IMG/VR virus record: IMGVR_UViG_3300033182_000988
Span: 1 to 52,477 of that record
Reading direction: 5' to 3' (one strand)
Source: a virus
Length of the DNA: 52,477 bases
How positions within the stretch are numbered: the stretch's first letter is position 1; each line of letters opens with the position of its first letter. Made by a program: the position numbers and the translations under genes. Positions 27,838 through 34,520 of the stretch are shown here, piece by piece. The notes below the pieces were generated by a model. That model made no database searches, was not told the origin of the DNA, and worked only from the letters and a program-made list of their open reading frames with translations.

Positions 27838-29127
27838 TTATTGATTTGGTCCGTAAAGTCCATAGGAATCTCTCATCAGTTTGAGAGATGTTGTGTTTTG
27901 TTGAGCGGAAAAATGATGTCTCAACTCCCTTATAACATAATTGCCACTTGTTTCTGAATCAACTTCTCTTGTTTTTCCAGAATTCATTTCGGGAAATTCA
28001 CAATAGATTATATCTCCTACTTTTAGATTTATGTTACATGGTATAAGAATATTTAGTGCCTGTGTGAACAGCAAATTATATCTAGAGTATGCTTTTGCCT
28101 GATCTGAAATATCTCTTCCCGACTGTGCAGTTCCGCCAGCAGGTGCCAATATACCATGATCAGAAGTTCTAACCATAATTCTGGAAAATGATTTTCCTAG
28201 TCCCTCAGATACAGCAATACTTTCTTGGTTGCCAAGTTGAGAAGCATTTTTAATTTCATCTTGAAGATAGTAGTTATAGATTGAGAATGTATGATTCTCT
28301 CTATTATAGAAGTATGTTTTGTTGGCATACATTCCAACACGTAATGCTTTTCTCAGGTCAATATTTTTCTCAAAGAAGTAATTCAAAATTGAGAAATTGT
28401 TTTCAATGTTTCCCGCTTCAATTACCTTACCATTATACTTGTAACTATACTTACTTTCTGTCTTTGTTACAATTTTGTCAATACTTCTAAAGTTGAATCC
28501 ATCCTTGTTCTCATAGAACAAGAATCCTGCAGTTCCTTTCGCAAGGCCTTGTTCTGTTTTATCTGCGCCATCAGTTCCAGTTTTCTTTGTGGCAGTAGAT
28601 ATAGACTTTGGTCCTAACCATTGCAAAACATGCAAAGGTTTCTTCATGTTACCAATGAAACTAAAAGTATTTGATGTTTCTTCTATGTTCTCAGACTTGA
28701 AGTTGGTCGTCTTTAAATCCTCTTTCAGGATCTTTGTTACAGTTTGATTTACTTTTCCCGAATATTTGGTGGCACATCTTGCAGTCTCATTTGTGAGAAA
28801 CTCTCTAGATACCAAATGCAAGGTAAAGTTCTCTGCTGTTTTCTCTGCTTCAAGTCCACTCACTTTGTAGACATACATCTGGTCAACAGCAAATTCTCCT
28901 GATGCAGTCTCTGCTTCTAGGAATAATCTTTCGCCTCCACGAATAGGAAGTCCATTAAACAATCCATATGCATTTGTGATTTGCATTGTCATTGTCACAC
29001 ATGGTTCCAGAATATCTTCAAAATAATCTACCGACAATACAGCATTAGAAATATCAAATGCATTGCCCCCATCAAGAGATTGTAAGACAACCGATCTATA
29101 TTGTAAACCCGATACTGCTTCTGCCAT
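27838..29127 (-). CDS. Baseplate hub protein, gp27 / gpD-like
   Basis: A 429-residue protein with a beta-rich start (YRSVVLQSLDGGNAFDISNA, SVDYFEDILEPCVTMTMQI) and the phrases VYKVSGLEAEKTAENFTLHL and VGDIIYCEFPEM. It ends with ELRHHFSAQQNTTSLKLMRD. This layout is that of hub proteins of the late-control gpD/gp27 superfamily, which form the trimeric torus holding gp5. T4 gp27 has a similar length (391). The assignment is by fold features and by its place next to gp5, not by strong sequence identity. Confidence 0.65.
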   Translation of the reverse strand: MAEAVSGLQYRSVVLQSLDGGNAFDISNAVLSVDYFEDILEPCVTMTMQITNAYGLFNGLPIRGGERLFLEAETASGEFAVDQMYVYKVSGLEAEKTAENFTLHLVSREFLTNETARCATKYSGKVNQTVTKILKEDLKTTNFKSENIEETSNTFSFIGNMKKPLHVLQWLGPKSISTATKKTGTDGADKTEQGLAKGTAGFLFYENKDGFNFRSIDKIVTKTESKYSYKYNGKVIEAGNIENNFSILNYFFEKNIDLRKALRVGMYANKTYFYNRENHTFSIYNYYLQDEIKNASQLGNQESIAVSEGLGKSFSRIMVRTSDHGILAPAGGTAQSGRDISDQAKAYSRYNLLFTQALNILIPCNINLKVGDIIYCEFPEMNSGKTREVDSETSGNYVIRELRHHFSAQQNTTSLKLMRDSYGLYGPNQ

Positions 29128-30992
29128 TACGTTGAAGAAAGTTTAGTTAATAGGAGAGTATTCCACAAACTATTTAATAGGACAACTTCAGGTATTGATG
29201 CTACAGCAACACCTCCACCACCTCCACCCATTGGGATTGGGATTGGGATTTGTTGTGGTATTACTTGTGGTCCTCCACCTTGTCCTTGTGTGATAATTAC
29301 TGTTTGCTGTCTTCCTGATGATTGTGACGCTGGTACTCGTGCTTGTGCTTGTGCTTGTGCTTCTGGTGGTTGTACTTTTGTTCTTACTGCAGATTCTGTT
29401 TTTTCTCCTGGTTTAGATTTGGCAGTAAAGAATGGATCGCTGAATTTATATGCACTAAGAGGATCAAAGCGACCTGTTATTTGCGCTCCATTCCATCCAG
29501 TCCCAGTTTCCCAATGTAGGTGTGGACCAGATGTTCTTCCAGTCATTCCAACTTTTCCAATAATATCTCCCTTCTTGACTGGACCACCTCGTTTATACCC
29601 TTCTTGCATATGACCATAAAGATGATGAATACCTTTGTCATCCCTAAAGACTAAGAAATTTCCCCATCCGCTTTCATAATCAGAGTCTACAACTTCACCA
29701 TCGGAAATAGCACGAAGAGGAGTTCCTTGTGCTGCTGCAATATCTTCTCCTTTATGCATTCTATCTCCACGCATTTGCCCATAAGATCCCTTAGGAGTTA
29801 AGGTTATCCCAGTATCAGGATCGGTATACTCGTATCCACCACCTTCTTTTGGTGCTCCATATAATGAGTGCTGAAGATTGAAACTGGGACTATAAGTTAA
29901 AGGTCCTTCTTTTTTATCGGATGTTCTTCCTTGAGCAAAAGTCAAAAGACCATCAACCGCCTCACCAAATGTTTTGAGTAAAGAAGAAAATTCTTTTTCG
30001 TTCTTTATATCTCTTTTTTCATTTTCTTTGATTTGATCTATTTTTTTGTCAGCACCTGTGAGTTTATCTGCAACACCACTCAATAAACTTGATCCTGCTA
30101 TTCCACCAATAAGTGCAGAAGCACCAACTGCCAATGCATAGACTACTCTAGAACCAGGAACAGGAGTAACTATGAGTGGGGATAGTGCAGCTGCAGTTCC
30201 CTTTGCAGCAGCGATCCCTGCTGCAGCACCTGCCCACCCACCAACTCCTCCAGCAACTGCCCCACTAATTGCTTGAGTTTGTGTCTGCCCTTCCGATAAT
30301 CTACTTCCATAATCATATGCAGCAAGACCAGCACTTAATAGTCCACCTCTAAGTCCAATCCCTCCAGGTTTTCCTCTGGGGACATTTGTGCCACCACCAA
30401 CTTGTGGTTTACCACCTCCAAATCCTGGAAGTTTAAATCCTTGCCCCTTTAATGCTCCTTGTGCATTAAATCCACCCTTTGTGAAAAGTCCAGATGCACC
30501 AATATGACCTCTTCTGAAAAGTCTAAGGCGATCACCTAAATTTGATTTACCAGAAATATACCTAGAGAAAGAATCATTAAGTCTACTCAGACTCTTAGGA
30601 TTTAATTTTGGTATTTTTATCCCACCACCGTTGGTTGACTTTGGTTTGGGTTTACCTTTCGGTGGTTTTGCTCTCCTAATGAATGGGATATCTGGTCCAC
30701 CAAGACTAGGAAGAAACATGCCTGGGATCCCACCAAGCAATCCAAGTAGTCCGCCAAGACCACCGCCTCCTCCTCTGTCCATCTCAAGAACTAGTTTTTC
30801 TAGTTTCTTGATTTCTTTCTTTGATGGAATCTTTATCTTCTCTAGATCTTTTGTACTAGAGTCTATCCATTTGATAAATTTCTTGTACTCGGACTTCTTA
30901 TCAAAGTCTAGCGCCTTAACCATTCTGGTTTGAGGCGAAGCTACAATATTATTTGCTGAATTTTTGAGTGGAGACTTTATGAGAGTAACCAT
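29127..30992 (-). CDS. Tail protein with M23 peptidase domain
   Basis: A 621-residue protein. The N-terminal third is basic and Gly-rich (GGGGGLGGLLGLLGG) with a hydrophobic Ala/Gly segment around 230-300. Residues about 395-525 form a complete M23 (LytM-type) metallopeptidase. It has the zinc motif HKGED (HxxxD), the phrase HHLYGHMQEGY, and HLHWETGTG (HxH). Such enzymes cut peptide cross-bridges in peptidoglycan. The C-terminus is a Gln/Pro/Gly-rich tail. It sits between the gp27-like hub gene and a lysozyme-like gene, so it is likely a virion-borne enzyme used during DNA injection. Confidence 0.85.
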   Translation of the reverse strand: MVTLIKSPLKNSANNIVASPQTRMVKALDFDKKSEYKKFIKWIDSSTKDLEKIKIPSKKEIKKLEKLVLEMDRGGGGGLGGLLGLLGGIPGMFLPSLGGPDIPFIRRAKPPKGKPKPKSTNGGGIKIPKLNPKSLSRLNDSFSRYISGKSNLGDRLRLFRRGHIGASGLFTKGGFNAQGALKGQGFKLPGFGGGKPQVGGGTNVPRGKPGGIGLRGGLLSAGLAAYDYGSRLSEGQTQTQAISGAVAGGVGGWAGAAAGIAAAKGTAAALSPLIVTPVPGSRVVYALAVGASALIGGIAGSSLLSGVADKLTGADKKIDQIKENEKRDIKNEKEFSSLLKTFGEAVDGLLTFAQGRTSDKKEGPLTYSPSFNLQHSLYGAPKEGGGYEYTDPDTGITLTPKGSYGQMRGDRMHKGEDIAAAQGTPLRAISDGEVVDSDYESGWGNFLVFRDDKGIHHLYGHMQEGYKRGGPVKKGDIIGKVGMTGRTSGPHLHWETGTGWNGAQITGRFDPLSAYKFSDPFFTAKSKPGEKTESAVRTKVQPPEAQAQAQARVPASQSSGRQQTVIITQGQGGGPQVIPQQIPIPIPMGGGGGGVAVASIPEVVLLNSLWNTLLLTKLSST

Positions 30993-30997
30993 ATCCC

Positions 30998-32689
30998 CTA
31001 TGCCTCAACAATATTGTACAACATCTTTGCACTCAATCCAGCATAACTATCAAAATTATTAGAAGGTAAGAATGCAATTGATGGTCCTTTAGTTTGAGCA
31101 GGTATTGATGATACTCCTCCAGTTGAAGGTGCTGCCTGAACTCCACCAGAATCACCAGGTATTTGTATTACTGATACTTCTGCACCTGGGCGAGATTCTC
31201 CTGGCGTTCTTACTCCATTTGGGTCTGGATTAATTCCATACATCCCCTGAACCGTATTATACCAATCTCTTGATCTTTGTAATGGTATACTTTGGTTATA
31301 AACGAAATACTTATCTTTGAATAGTTGCCTTACCCTGTCTTTTTCAGCATCAGTTAGAGTTTGTTTCTGAAGAAGATCAAGCAATTCAGTATGACCTCTT
31401 GCTTGGATCTCTTTAATCATTGCAGCAGCATTTGCTTTAATTCCTTCGTCGCCGCTTGCTTTTAATCCTGCTTCGGTTGGATCAATTCCTCTTGCTTTTA
31501 ATTCATCCAGTAATACTTTTTCTCTCCCACCCTGCCAACTTACTGCTCCATATGCCTTCACTCCATTATCCATATGAGTTCCCAGAATAAGATCTCTTCT
31601 TAGACTATTCTCTCTTCCAATTTCTGCGGTAGCAAGTTTTGCACCTTCTTCGGAAAGGCCTTGTGCTTTAAATTCCCCAGTAAGTAAATTTGCAACCTCT
31701 TTTTGGGAAGCACTGGTTGGTGCTGCATTTGATGGACTGGTAGGAATTAATCCAGTTTGAGGTACTACTGGTGAATCATCTTGTCCATCTTGTTTTGTCT
31801 TTCCACCAGACAGCAATAGATCTACTGCTTGTTTAAACTTATTAATAATTTTTTCAAATGTGGTTGTATTTTTTTCACGAGTATCTGTAGTTTGTGATTC
31901 TTCTTTTCTCTGAATATCAAAGTCTGCTTCTTGTGCATTTACTTTATTCATAAAGGAAGATCCAAGTCCAAGGACACCAAGAACTCCTAAACCACCTAGG
32001 GTCATCCTAGGTAAAACTTTCATTGCTGTTCCACCTAATCCGATTCTAGAAAATAGAGAAATTATTCCCCCAATAACAGATCCTACTAATTTTAGAACAC
32101 CACCAATAAGACCTGCAATTAAACCTAAGGCACCACCACCGCCGCCGACAGCAGAGATGGATGGGATATCTTTTAACTGCTTAGCAATTCTATTGATTGT
32201 GATTCGTAAAAACTTAGCAATCTCAAAAGTTTCTGTCAGAGAATTTCTAAGTCTTTGTACACTCTTTCTTAATCTTCTTTCTGTTTTCTTAGATCCAAAG
32301 AAGTCTAAGATATCATACCCAGTTGCTCTACCATAACTTTTAGTATTTGAAATATTATTAATTACTGAACCAAGATTATTCTGACTAGGTGGAGATATAT
32401 TATTTCTTTGGAAACTGACAATATTATTCCTAGCACCAGATACTATAGATGCACCTGGTTTAGATCCACCTGATATAAAATTAACTGCCGCCGCTAATGG
32501 ATCACCCTGTTCTTTTATTATTTTATCACTATAATCTTTTGGTGAAAGATTTGAAGATAAAGGTTTTGGTTTATAAAATTTTCTAGTGGAGGGCAAAATT
32601 GTTTTAAGTCCTTTAAGTCCCGTAGATCCCTTAGGTCCAGTATCCCTAAAGGTTCTTTTATACTTTATAATGGGACGTTTTTTATCCAT
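30998..32689 (-). CDS. Tail-associated lysozyme-like protein
   Basis: A 563-residue protein. The N-terminal half is basic and then helical, with two apolar Gly-rich stretches (GLIAGLIGGVLKLVGSVIGG, near residue 195) that may be membrane-active. Residues about 325-485 resemble a phage-tail lysozyme domain: GLSEEGAKLATAEIGRENS, then KAYGAVSWQGGREKVLLDEL. A glutamate in EIGREN is the best candidate catalytic residue, but this is by eye. It overlaps the small gene at 32682 by 8 bases. With the M23 protein beside it, the hub carries two potential wall-cutting activities. Confidence 0.65.
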   Translation of the reverse strand: MDKKRPIIKYKRTFRDTGPKGSTGLKGLKTILPSTRKFYKPKPLSSNLSPKDYSDKIIKEQGDPLAAAVNFISGGSKPGASIVSGARNNIVSFQRNNISPPSQNNLGSVINNISNTKSYGRATGYDILDFFGSKKTERRLRKSVQRLRNSLTETFEIAKFLRITINRIAKQLKDIPSISAVGGGGGALGLIAGLIGGVLKLVGSVIGGIISLFSRIGLGGTAMKVLPRMTLGGLGVLGVLGLGSSFMNKVNAQEADFDIQRKEESQTTDTREKNTTTFEKIINKFKQAVDLLLSGGKTKQDGQDDSPVVPQTGLIPTSPSNAAPTSASQKEVANLLTGEFKAQGLSEEGAKLATAEIGRENSLRRDLILGTHMDNGVKAYGAVSWQGGREKVLLDELKARGIDPTEAGLKASGDEGIKANAAAMIKEIQARGHTELLDLLQKQTLTDAEKDRVRQLFKDKYFVYNQSIPLQRSRDWYNTVQGMYGINPDPNGVRTPGESRPGAEVSVIQIPGDSGGVQAAPSTGGVSSIPAQTKGPSIAFLPSNNFDSYAGLSAKMLYNIVEA

Positions 32690-32861
32690 TTACCGCCTGT
32701 TGTGCTTTTAGATTTTCCTCTTCAATATGTTGATTCAGAAGTGCAAGATAGATATCTCGCTCCCAAGGCATCATGTTTTCAATCTCTGTCAAACTGTATT
32801 TATGATGCTGCATCAAGGCAAAATTAAGTTTATAGAATGACTCAAGGTCAATATGAGCCAT
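32682..32861 (-). CDS. Small gene after gp26; probable -1 frameshift extension (tail assembly chaperone)
   Basis: From ATG 32861 the frame encodes about 59 residues: MAHIDLESFYKLNFALMQHH, then YSLTEIENMMPWERDIYLAL. The MPWERDIY phrase is typical of the second reading frame of tail assembly chaperone pairs. Its frame is continuous with gp26 shifted by -1 through TTTTTTC at 32870-32876. It can therefore be made as a C-terminal extension of gp26, or by re-initiation at this ATG, 2 bases after the gp26 stop. Such a split is the rule for tail assembly chaperones of many tailed phages (lambda G/GT). Confidence 0.7.
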   Translation of the reverse strand: MAHIDLESFYKLNFALMQHHKYSLTEIENMMPWERDIYLALLNQHIEEENLKAQQAVNG

Positions 32862-32863
32862 GA

Positions 32864-33589
32864 TCAACCGAAAAAACTTGACAGTCCCTCCAGCGTCACT
32901 TCACTTTCAACTTCGGTATTTGGATTGGTAACCTTAAACGTATGAGAAAGTTTTGGCATGGTAGCAAAGAACTCTTCAATTTGTTTAAACTGACTTGAGT
33001 TCAATCCATCTAACCAAGACATCAATTCTTTCTTGGTGCAATCTGCAGCAGACCAGCACTCATCTGCATCAAAGATCATATCAATACATGATGCAATAAT
33101 TTCAAATGACTTCTCAAGTGAAGATTCATCATCCGTATTGAAATCAAAGTTGTTCTGAATGAATTGATTCAGAGATGGATACTTCATACGCAATGTGAGT
33201 TTACCATCAAGATTAATATCTGTAGTATGATTTAGATCTTTCTGTACAGAAATCTCATCAATGTAAACCTTGACTGGAACTGTAGTCTCCCCATCATCAG
33301 GGCAAGTTACAACCAGATCAATTGCTTCTCCAACTGACTTGCCACGAACATTTAAGAAGACATATTCAATGTCAAATGTAGGAAGTTCTTCTACTTTAAC
33401 TCCTCTTGTTTGAATGCAATCCTTCAGCGTTGTTTTGATTGCACTTGTAATTTGATCTACATTCTCACTCTCTAGTGCAAGAATCAGAATCTTTTCTTCT
33501 CTGACTAAAAATGGTCTGTATTTAATCTTCTTTCCAGTTGAAGGTAATTCCAACTCATATGTTGGTGTGGAGATCTTTGGTAAAGGCAT
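32864..33589 (-). CDS. gp26: Baseplate hub assembly protein gp26-like
   Basis: A 241-residue protein starting MPLPKISTPTYELELPSTG, the family pattern of T4 gp26-type baseplate proteins (PSTGKKIKYRPFLVREEK). The middle contains ECWSAADCTKKELMSWLDGL and the C-terminus LEGLSSFFG. It is needed for assembly of the hub. A late-type box is at 33618-33624 and GGATATT precedes the ATG. The final codons AGT TTT TTC hold a slippery heptamer, so a longer gp26 fusion with the next gene is likely. T4 gp26 has a comparable length (208). Confidence 0.8.
   Translation of the reverse strand: MPLPKISTPTYELELPSTGKKIKYRPFLVREEKILILALESENVDQITSAIKTTLKDCIQTRGVKVEELPTFDIEYVFLNVRGKSVGEAIDLVVTCPDDGETTVPVKVYIDEISVQKDLNHTTDINLDGKLTLRMKYPSLNQFIQNNFDFNTDDESSLEKSFEIIASCIDMIFDADECWSAADCTKKELMSWLDGLNSSQFKQIEEFFATMPKLSHTFKVTNPNTEVESEVTLEGLSSFFG
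32870..32876 (-). promoter_or_regulatory. Slippery heptamer for -1 frameshift
   Basis: The minus strand reads T TTT TTC in the gp26 frame (codons TTT TTC), a canonical X XXY YYZ slippery site, two codons before the gp26 stop. A -1 slip gives TTT TTT CGG TTG ATC ATG and joins the small frame downstream. Confidence 0.65.
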
Positions 33590-33617: not shown

Positions 33618-33624
33618 TATTTAG
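33618..33624 (-). promoter_or_regulatory. Late-type promoter box for gp26
   Basis: CTAAATA on the minus strand, about 29 bases upstream of the gp26 ATG. It overlaps the stop of the gp54-like gene. Confidence 0.5.
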
Positions 33625-34520
33625 TTCATTGGTGAAGGTGGTCCTGCTATTTCTGCAGTAGCAGGAGTTCCACCCTGTTCTCTAATTCTATTTTGAGATC
33701 TGATTATCATTTCTCTAATTTCACTAACAGAATCAGTGATAGATTGTGGACTAGGTTGTTCTGGATTCGCCTTGTTTGTTGTGGGTGTTCCGTTAGGAGT
33801 TGTAGTTTGTTTATCAAATCCAGTTTTCTCTACAATATATCTACTATAATTAAATGAAGCAGTAACTTTTGTGATAGTGCTAGACTCATAAGAAAATGGA
33901 AGGGCAACAATATTCATTGGGAATGCATCAATGAATGTATACTTGACTAATGGTTGTGATCTAAAACCAGAATTAGAAACATTTGGATTTGCCAGGAAGT
34001 TTCTTTCAAACTTAACTACTGATATAGGTCTCTTATAATCATTTGGATATTTCATTCTGTAAAAATTATTACGCTCACTGAATCCAGTTTGACCACCACT
34101 AGATCCTTGGTACTCACCGCCAGTTCCTGAATAAATCGGGTCAATATAATTCATCCATTCTTCCAAAAGACGAAGTGAATTGTAATCCTTGTCAACATAA
34201 AAAGTCAAATCAAAGTCTGTATAAATTCTTCTCGTTGCAAATCTTTCAATAACTCCTTGGCGACTACCACTTTCTTCACTCATGTCAAATGATGATCCAG
34301 GAAGAGTCACATCAGAGCAGAGTAAATTATATGACTCTAGTGACTCTTTTTTATTAAGTAATCCAGAAGATGTTAAGTGCGTATAGACACCACCCTTTTC
34401 TTTATCTTTACTTGGTGCCAAATTCAAATTCACCATGAATTGAGATGTCTGAGACAGTTTTCCGATAAGAGCGGAAACATCAGACATCTTTTTATAATAG
34501 AGTTCGGCGGACTCTGACAT
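33621..34520 (-). CDS. gp54: Baseplate tail-tube initiator gp54-like
   Basis: A 299-residue protein. Residues about 95-130 (RIYTDFDLTFYVDKDYNSLR, then WMNYIDPIYSG) match the tail-tube fold as in T4 gp54 (its FRMDSEACNYRAMQDWVNSV region). Near the C-terminus is FPMNIVALPFSYESSTITKV, the typical end of tube-like domains. After it comes a Pro/Thr/Gln-rich tail. T4 gp54 is 320 residues. It caps the baseplate and starts the tail tube. It is the first gene of the leftward operon, divergent from gp4. Confidence 0.75.
   Translation of the reverse strand: MSESAELYYKKMSDVSALIGKLSQTSQFMVNLNLAPSKDKEKGGVYTHLTSSGLLNKKESLESYNLLCSDVTLPGSSFDMSEESGSRQGVIERFATRRIYTDFDLTFYVDKDYNSLRLLEEWMNYIDPIYSGTGGEYQGSSGGQTGFSERNNFYRMKYPNDYKRPISVVKFERNFLANPNVSNSGFRSQPLVKYTFIDAFPMNIVALPFSYESSTITKVTASFNYSRYIVEKTGFDKQTTTPNGTPTTNKANPEQPSPQSITDSVSEIREMIIRSQNRIREQGGTPATAEIAGPPSPMN

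Follow-up and report, generated by a model that had tools for sequence, protein, structure and literature searches.

A predicted -1 frameshift joining gp26 and gp51 into a two-form tail assembly chaperone in marine T4-like phages

A -1 frameshift at the end of gp26 very probably joins this gene to the small gp51 frame that follows it, as judged from sequence comparison across relatives. The window, by which we mean the whole stretch of DNA that was analysed, is a 52,477-base IMG/VR virus fragment. Among the named members of the phage collection, the closest to it are T4-like phages of Synechococcus and Prochlorococcus. That the frameshift occurs in this virus, and at what rate, are matters that we infer. 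The features that bear on it are collected in Table 1.

Table 1. Features of the gp26/gp51 region, in positions of the window
Feature	Position	Strand	Basis
gp26 (241 aa), the short tail assembly chaperone form, TAC-N	32864..33589	-	Pfam PF12322 T4_baseplate; PHROG 150
Slippery heptamer T TTT TTC, in gp26 frame	32870..32876	-	Sequence; conservation; near-zero synonymous change
Predicted -1 frameshift product gp26-gp51 (TAC-NC), 302 aa	32682..33589	-	Alignment to T4 gp51 through the junction
Small gp51 frame from the customary ATG start, 59 aa	32682..32861	-	PHROG 634, E 3e-28
Shine-Dalgarno-like GGAGGG, predicted frameshift stimulator	32886..32891	-	9-10 nt upstream of heptamer, dnaX-type spacing
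Downstream hairpin ATGGCTCA/TGAGTCAT, 8-bp core, predicted stimulator	32837..32861	-	Folding; clade comparison
Tail tube protein gene, directly upstream of gp26, TAC-typical neighbour	33621..34520	-	PF23849 Phage_TTP_2, E 5e-17
563-aa gene directly downstream, sharing 8 nt with the end of gp51	30998..32689	-	Position; hydrophobic segments

The match of gp26 to PF12322 (E 6e-72; 242 bits against a curated cut-off of 24.5) covers residues 9-240. On the minus strand the gene ends with TCA AGT TTT TTC GGT TGA, followed by TC ATG GCT CAT. The original prediction placed a slippery T TTT TTC in the gp26 frame at this end and stated that a -1 slip would enter the small frame without a stop. Both points were confirmed: the heptamer stands at 32876-32870, and the slipped reading, TTT TTT CGG TTG ATC ATG GCT, stays open until 32684-32682. 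The predicted fusion follows gp26 up to the TTC at 32870; base 32870 is then read again as the first of the -1 part, which ends with the stop at 32682. Beside its PHROG 634 match, the small gp51 frame also hits positions 241-280, at the end of the PHROG 150 model, and it gave no match in NCBIfam or Pfam. It is predicted to be the C-terminal domain of the frameshift product. Frameshifted tail assembly chaperones elsewhere lie between the tail tube and tape measure genes; here the pair stands beside the tail tube gene and before a candidate tape measure gene. The 563-aa protein encoded by the latter (30998-32689) has a long hydrophobic stretch and matches no Pfam family, and its PHROG tape-measure hit is weak (E 0.029); by position and hydrophobic segments it is the best tape measure candidate of this phage group. 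The gene at 29127-30992 on the same strand encodes a tail-region protein of 621 aa; it has an M23 peptidase domain (PF01551, E 5e-25), and its N-terminal part is hydrophobic and rich in glycine.

We asked whether the heptamer could stand at the end of gp26 by chance. TTTTTTC occurs 17 times in the window against 22 +/- 4 expected and is not enriched, and the observation in a single sequence is therefore weak. Of the 15,624 codon positions in the 35 ORFs that reach 150 codons, a single one has T TTT TTN in frame: the gp26 site, 9 nt before the gp26 stop. Given its conservation over hundreds of relatives, the slip site is far more than a chance occurrence.

For this comparison, 252 loci with a usable gp26 end were taken from IMG/VR contigs (several scans) and from named phages; two viral-contig scans, with Vibrio and Agrobacterium queries, recovered none or only one relative. 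A gp51-domain profile was run in all three forward frames after each gp26. The domain was found in 250 of the 252 loci, and in every one of the 250 it lay in the -1 frame. Since 79 of the loci, read in -1, supplied the profile, they are not independent for the frame test; the other ~171 were not used for building. The heptamer, too, proved to be conserved: counting the window, 235 of 253 sequences have a canonical T TTT TTN, and it is kept in 155 of 161 clusters (clustering at 85% aa identity), figures which, like the other conservation figures given here, are descriptive and not probabilities, the sequences being related by descent. Among phages of rhizobia, Rhizobium phage RHph_I1_9 has T TTT TTG at the slip site and Sinorhizobium phage phiN3 has T TTT TTT, and the site is therefore kept across host phyla with differing A-site codons. 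The residue encoded in the gp26 frame directly after the slip varies (Gly 58, Ala 48, Val 12; also Ser, Glu and Asp). This codon begins with G in 129 of 150 cases, so that the -1 frame encodes Arg in 128 of 150. Re-initiation would not translate this Arg, which lies upstream of the ATG. By the pattern of codons across relatives, the gp26/gp51 overlap is read in the -1 frame. Conservation of the site, the frame of the gp51 domain and the continuity with T4 gp51 described below all support the predicted frameshift joining gp26 to the downstream frame.

Beside the heptamer, the region contains two putative stimulators. GGAG at -16 from the P-site codon occurs in 49% of clusters, against 7% expected from synonymous shuffling (z 21.7), and GAGG at -15 occurs in 73% against 25% expected (z 13.6). 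Overall, an SD-like element is present in 83% of clusters against 47% expected, and the offsets adjoining -16 and -15 are without comparable excess, one rare case excepted. A generic 'longest SD match' score was mildly raised (4.50 against 4.21), and the position-specific test was the decisive one. On the downstream side, the RNA just after the slip site folds with a mean z of -2.4 to -2.7 against shuffles (80 clusters), the upstream control being 0.17. The predicted hairpin follows the pattern AGTATGGCTCA-N9-TGAGTCATACT in the window's clade, and its 5' arm contains the ATG usually taken as the start of gp51. The arms vary in step (GCTCA/TGAGT, GCACA/TGTGT, GCGCA/TGCGT). Cells with double changes in the stem number 131 against 83 +/- 6 in shuffles, and up to 128 when the partner is slid; because the slid controls overlap on this count, the covariation is supportive, not conclusive. 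We also considered the hairpin as a universal part of the signal and rejected this: it is clade-specific, the stem fitting 61 of 151 clusters, window included, against at most 16 with the partner slid by 1-3 bases. Other clades have a different hairpin at that position (e.g. CTCTTCCA/TGGAAGGG) or none.

The run of T could in principle be kept without any role in frameshifting, by a need for Phe-Phe or by chance codon use, and T4 gp26 also has Phe-Phe. The codons themselves make this barely credible. Over 4,053 related pairs, the two slip codons show synonymous differences of 0.00 and 0.02, compared with 0.45 for the gene as a whole, and in the same comparison the other Phe columns of gp26 range from 0.08 to 0.49, that is, they differ synonymously in 8-49% of pairs against 0-2% for the slip Phe codons. 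The codon before the heptamer (AGT, TCT, GAT, AAT, GCT or CGT) ends in T in 155 of 155 clusters although its residue changes among Ser, Asp, Asn, Ala and Arg, and the background frequency of third-position T is 0.32-0.81 for Ser, Asp, Asn and Ala. Moreover, T4 gp26 encodes its Phe-Phe as TTC TTT, and RHph_I1_9, with TTT TTG, drops the second Phe yet keeps the heptamer type. The same codons bear on the idea that the fused reading comes from slippage of the transcribing polymerase on the T6 run rather than of the ribosome. A run of six T is indeed present, with seven or more in a minority of clusters, but bacterial transcriptional slippage generally needs runs longer than six T. The P-site codon is TTT in all 155 clusters, and the A-site codon is TTC in 135, TTT in 16, TTA in 3 and TTG in 1. 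In these genes overall, Phe is encoded by TTT 1205 times and by TTC 604 times, and the A site instead has TTC in 135 of 151 Phe cases. This preference, despite TTT being the commoner codon, suggests selection against a run of seven T, and it limits the run mostly to six. Transcriptional slippage would also leave unexplained why an SD-like element and a hairpin stand at ribosomal spacings, and we regard it as very improbable.

The original prediction named as its alternative that ribosomes stop at the gp26 TGA and restart, by re-initiation or translational coupling, at the ATG two bases later, producing a separate 59-residue gp51. This ATG, at stop+5, is found in the window and in many relatives (86 of 151 aligned clusters), and database records annotate gp51 as a gene of its own. 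Nevertheless, 58 of 161 clusters have no ATG, GTG or TTG from the start of the -1 open region to +11 past the gp26 stop, and Aeromonas phages Ah1 and Aeh1, Cronobacter phage LPCS28, Synechococcus phage S-MbCM7 and Methylophilales phage Melnitz keep the heptamer and have no ATG at this position (in Ah1 there is a GTG in frame). Where the ATG is present, it often coincides with the hairpin: all 61 clusters of the stem class have it, against 25 of 90 others, and it sits within the stem. No SD tetramer at a spacing suited to initiation precedes the gp51 ATG position in any locus or cluster examined. Because the ATG lies in the hairpin, no SD accompanies it and a start is absent from so many clusters, re-initiation is unlikely as the main route; it also leaves the conservation of the slip codons unexplained. 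We therefore disfavour it as an alternative to the -1 frameshift and consider it improbable, while some separate gp51 made from this ATG is possible.

The clusters without the canonical heptamer all belong to Ackermannviridae or similar-looking phages. At the end of gp26, Salmonella kutterviruses have ATT TTC ATT TAA, Serratia phages GTT TTC ATC TGA, and Vibrio phages CTT TTT CGC TAATG and similar. In these phages (loci L085, L094, L087, L187-L202 and L272) the gp51 domain keeps its place in the -1 frame, and several have no start codon for it. Those without a start codon may use a weaker, non-canonical slippery site, and those with TAATG may use re-initiation. The absence of a start codon also bears on annotation. 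Although the domain is present in the -1 frame, it is unannotated in Ah1, Aeh1, LPCS28 and S-MbCM7 (also at loci L085 and L094), apparently because there is no usable start codon; the Melnitz record starts gp51 further on, within the domain. Both the short gp51 of cyanophages and the absence of gp51 from Aeh1 are noted by Sullivan et al. 2010 (PMC3037559). Since Aeh1 carries the gp51 domain in the -1 frame without a start codon, its reported absence is explained.

The two proteins of T4 correspond to the two predicted forms. The 302-aa in-silico fusion gave an alignment of 239 columns with T4 gp51 that continues across the junction (E 2.9e-19), the segment of the fused reading at the junction being FFRLIMAHIDLESFYKLNFAL. 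Against T4 gp26, it aligned only to the junction, where T4 gp26 ends (E 1.4e-23). On T4 gp51, PF12322 scored 177.5 bits and covered residues 1-201 only, the remainder being exactly the small gp51 domain. The predicted structure of a T4-type gp51 matched gp26 models (e.g. Aeromonas phage 25 gp26, E 3.8e-10). T4 and the window share PF12322, and the short and the predicted long form of the window have their counterparts in T4 gp26 and in T4 gp51, whose C-terminal domain is the same. By contrast, the two forms are encoded in T4 by separate genes that are divergently transcribed, and no slippery heptamer is present; in T4-type genomes generally the two forms are in separate genes, and gp26 ends TTC TTT with no heptamer. 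These sequences are most simply explained if gene duplication and fusion took the place of frameshifting in T4-type phages, a direction of change that we infer. The proposal that the T4 gp26 type works as a two-form chaperone is supported by the sequence comparison, with one amendment: the predicted long form matches T4 gp51, a separate gene in T4.

If the frameshift operates as predicted, gp26 and the small gp51 frame would be one gene read two ways. Most ribosomes would stop at the gp26 TGA and yield the short chaperone (TAC-N). A minority would pause at T TTT TTC, aided by the upstream GGAGG and, in this clade, also by the downstream hairpin; these would slip back one base and make the 302-residue gp26-gp51 fusion (TAC-NC). 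In the dnaX cassette of Escherichia coli, an SD-like element lies ~10 nt upstream of a slippery heptamer and a hairpin ~5 nt downstream of it. The arrangement at gp26, which has these elements at dnaX-type spacing when ~5-9 nt is allowed for the hairpin, resembles this cassette. It differs in that the heptamer is T TTT TTC here and A AAA AAG there, the shift extends the protein whereas that of dnaX shortens it, and the hairpin is present in some clades only. The predicted products resemble in layout lambda gpG and gpGT (Xu, Hendrix and Duda 2004; PMC5009743), which are likewise a short and a -1-extended form with a common N-terminus. On the model of gpG/gpGT, the tape measure protein would be the binding partner of the domain common to both forms, the added domain would bring in tail tube or hub subunits, and both forms would leave before the virion is completed; these binding roles are drawn from that comparison. 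No sequence relative was found in the PDB, and fold searches of the PDB with gp26 and with a T4-type gp51 gave no significant match; with the gp26 model, Foldseek placed HK97 gp13 (2ob9) second (E 0.41, probability 0.33, not significant).

Frameshifting of this kind is known. According to papers that cite the work (PMC10885494, PMC12846349), T4 gp26 and gp51 were named tail assembly chaperones by Vladimirov, Gautam and Davidson 2022 (doi 10.1016/j.virol.2021.11.003), in agreement with the chaperone reading of gp26 and gp51 given here. In these citing papers, some T4-like phages are described as having a short gene and a longer fused gene in place of frameshifting (PMC10885494), and poly-T slippery sequences as known in T4-like TAC-N genes (PMC12846349). 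From such statements, this kind of frameshift is not new, and Vladimirov et al. 2022 may have covered the cyanophage case. PMC12846349 also infers a -1 frameshift in the tail chaperones of Pakpunavirus Adele and its relatives from a conserved T-rich motif; there, as here, an open -1 frame has no gene start, and the motif (GTTTTT) and the phage families differ. The literature searched, with most subscription papers outside it, held no report of the SD-like element, of the hairpin over the ATG or of the explanation for Aeh1.

In its most far-reaching form, the reading would be that the tail chaperone of marine T4-like phages contains a complete three-part dnaX-like cassette; that its hairpin lies over the apparent gp51 start, the ATG annotated in many genomes being a stem element and not a start; that the T4 superfamily ancestrally had the frameshifted gene, which duplication replaced in T4; and that Ackermannviridae make the -1 fusion on a non-canonical site (ATTTTC/GTTTTC). 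We give this whole an even chance of being right. On the frameshift reading as such, the part missing from the short gp51 would be gp26 itself, joined to it by frameshifting, which implies that gp51 is wrongly annotated, or left out, in many T4-like genomes.
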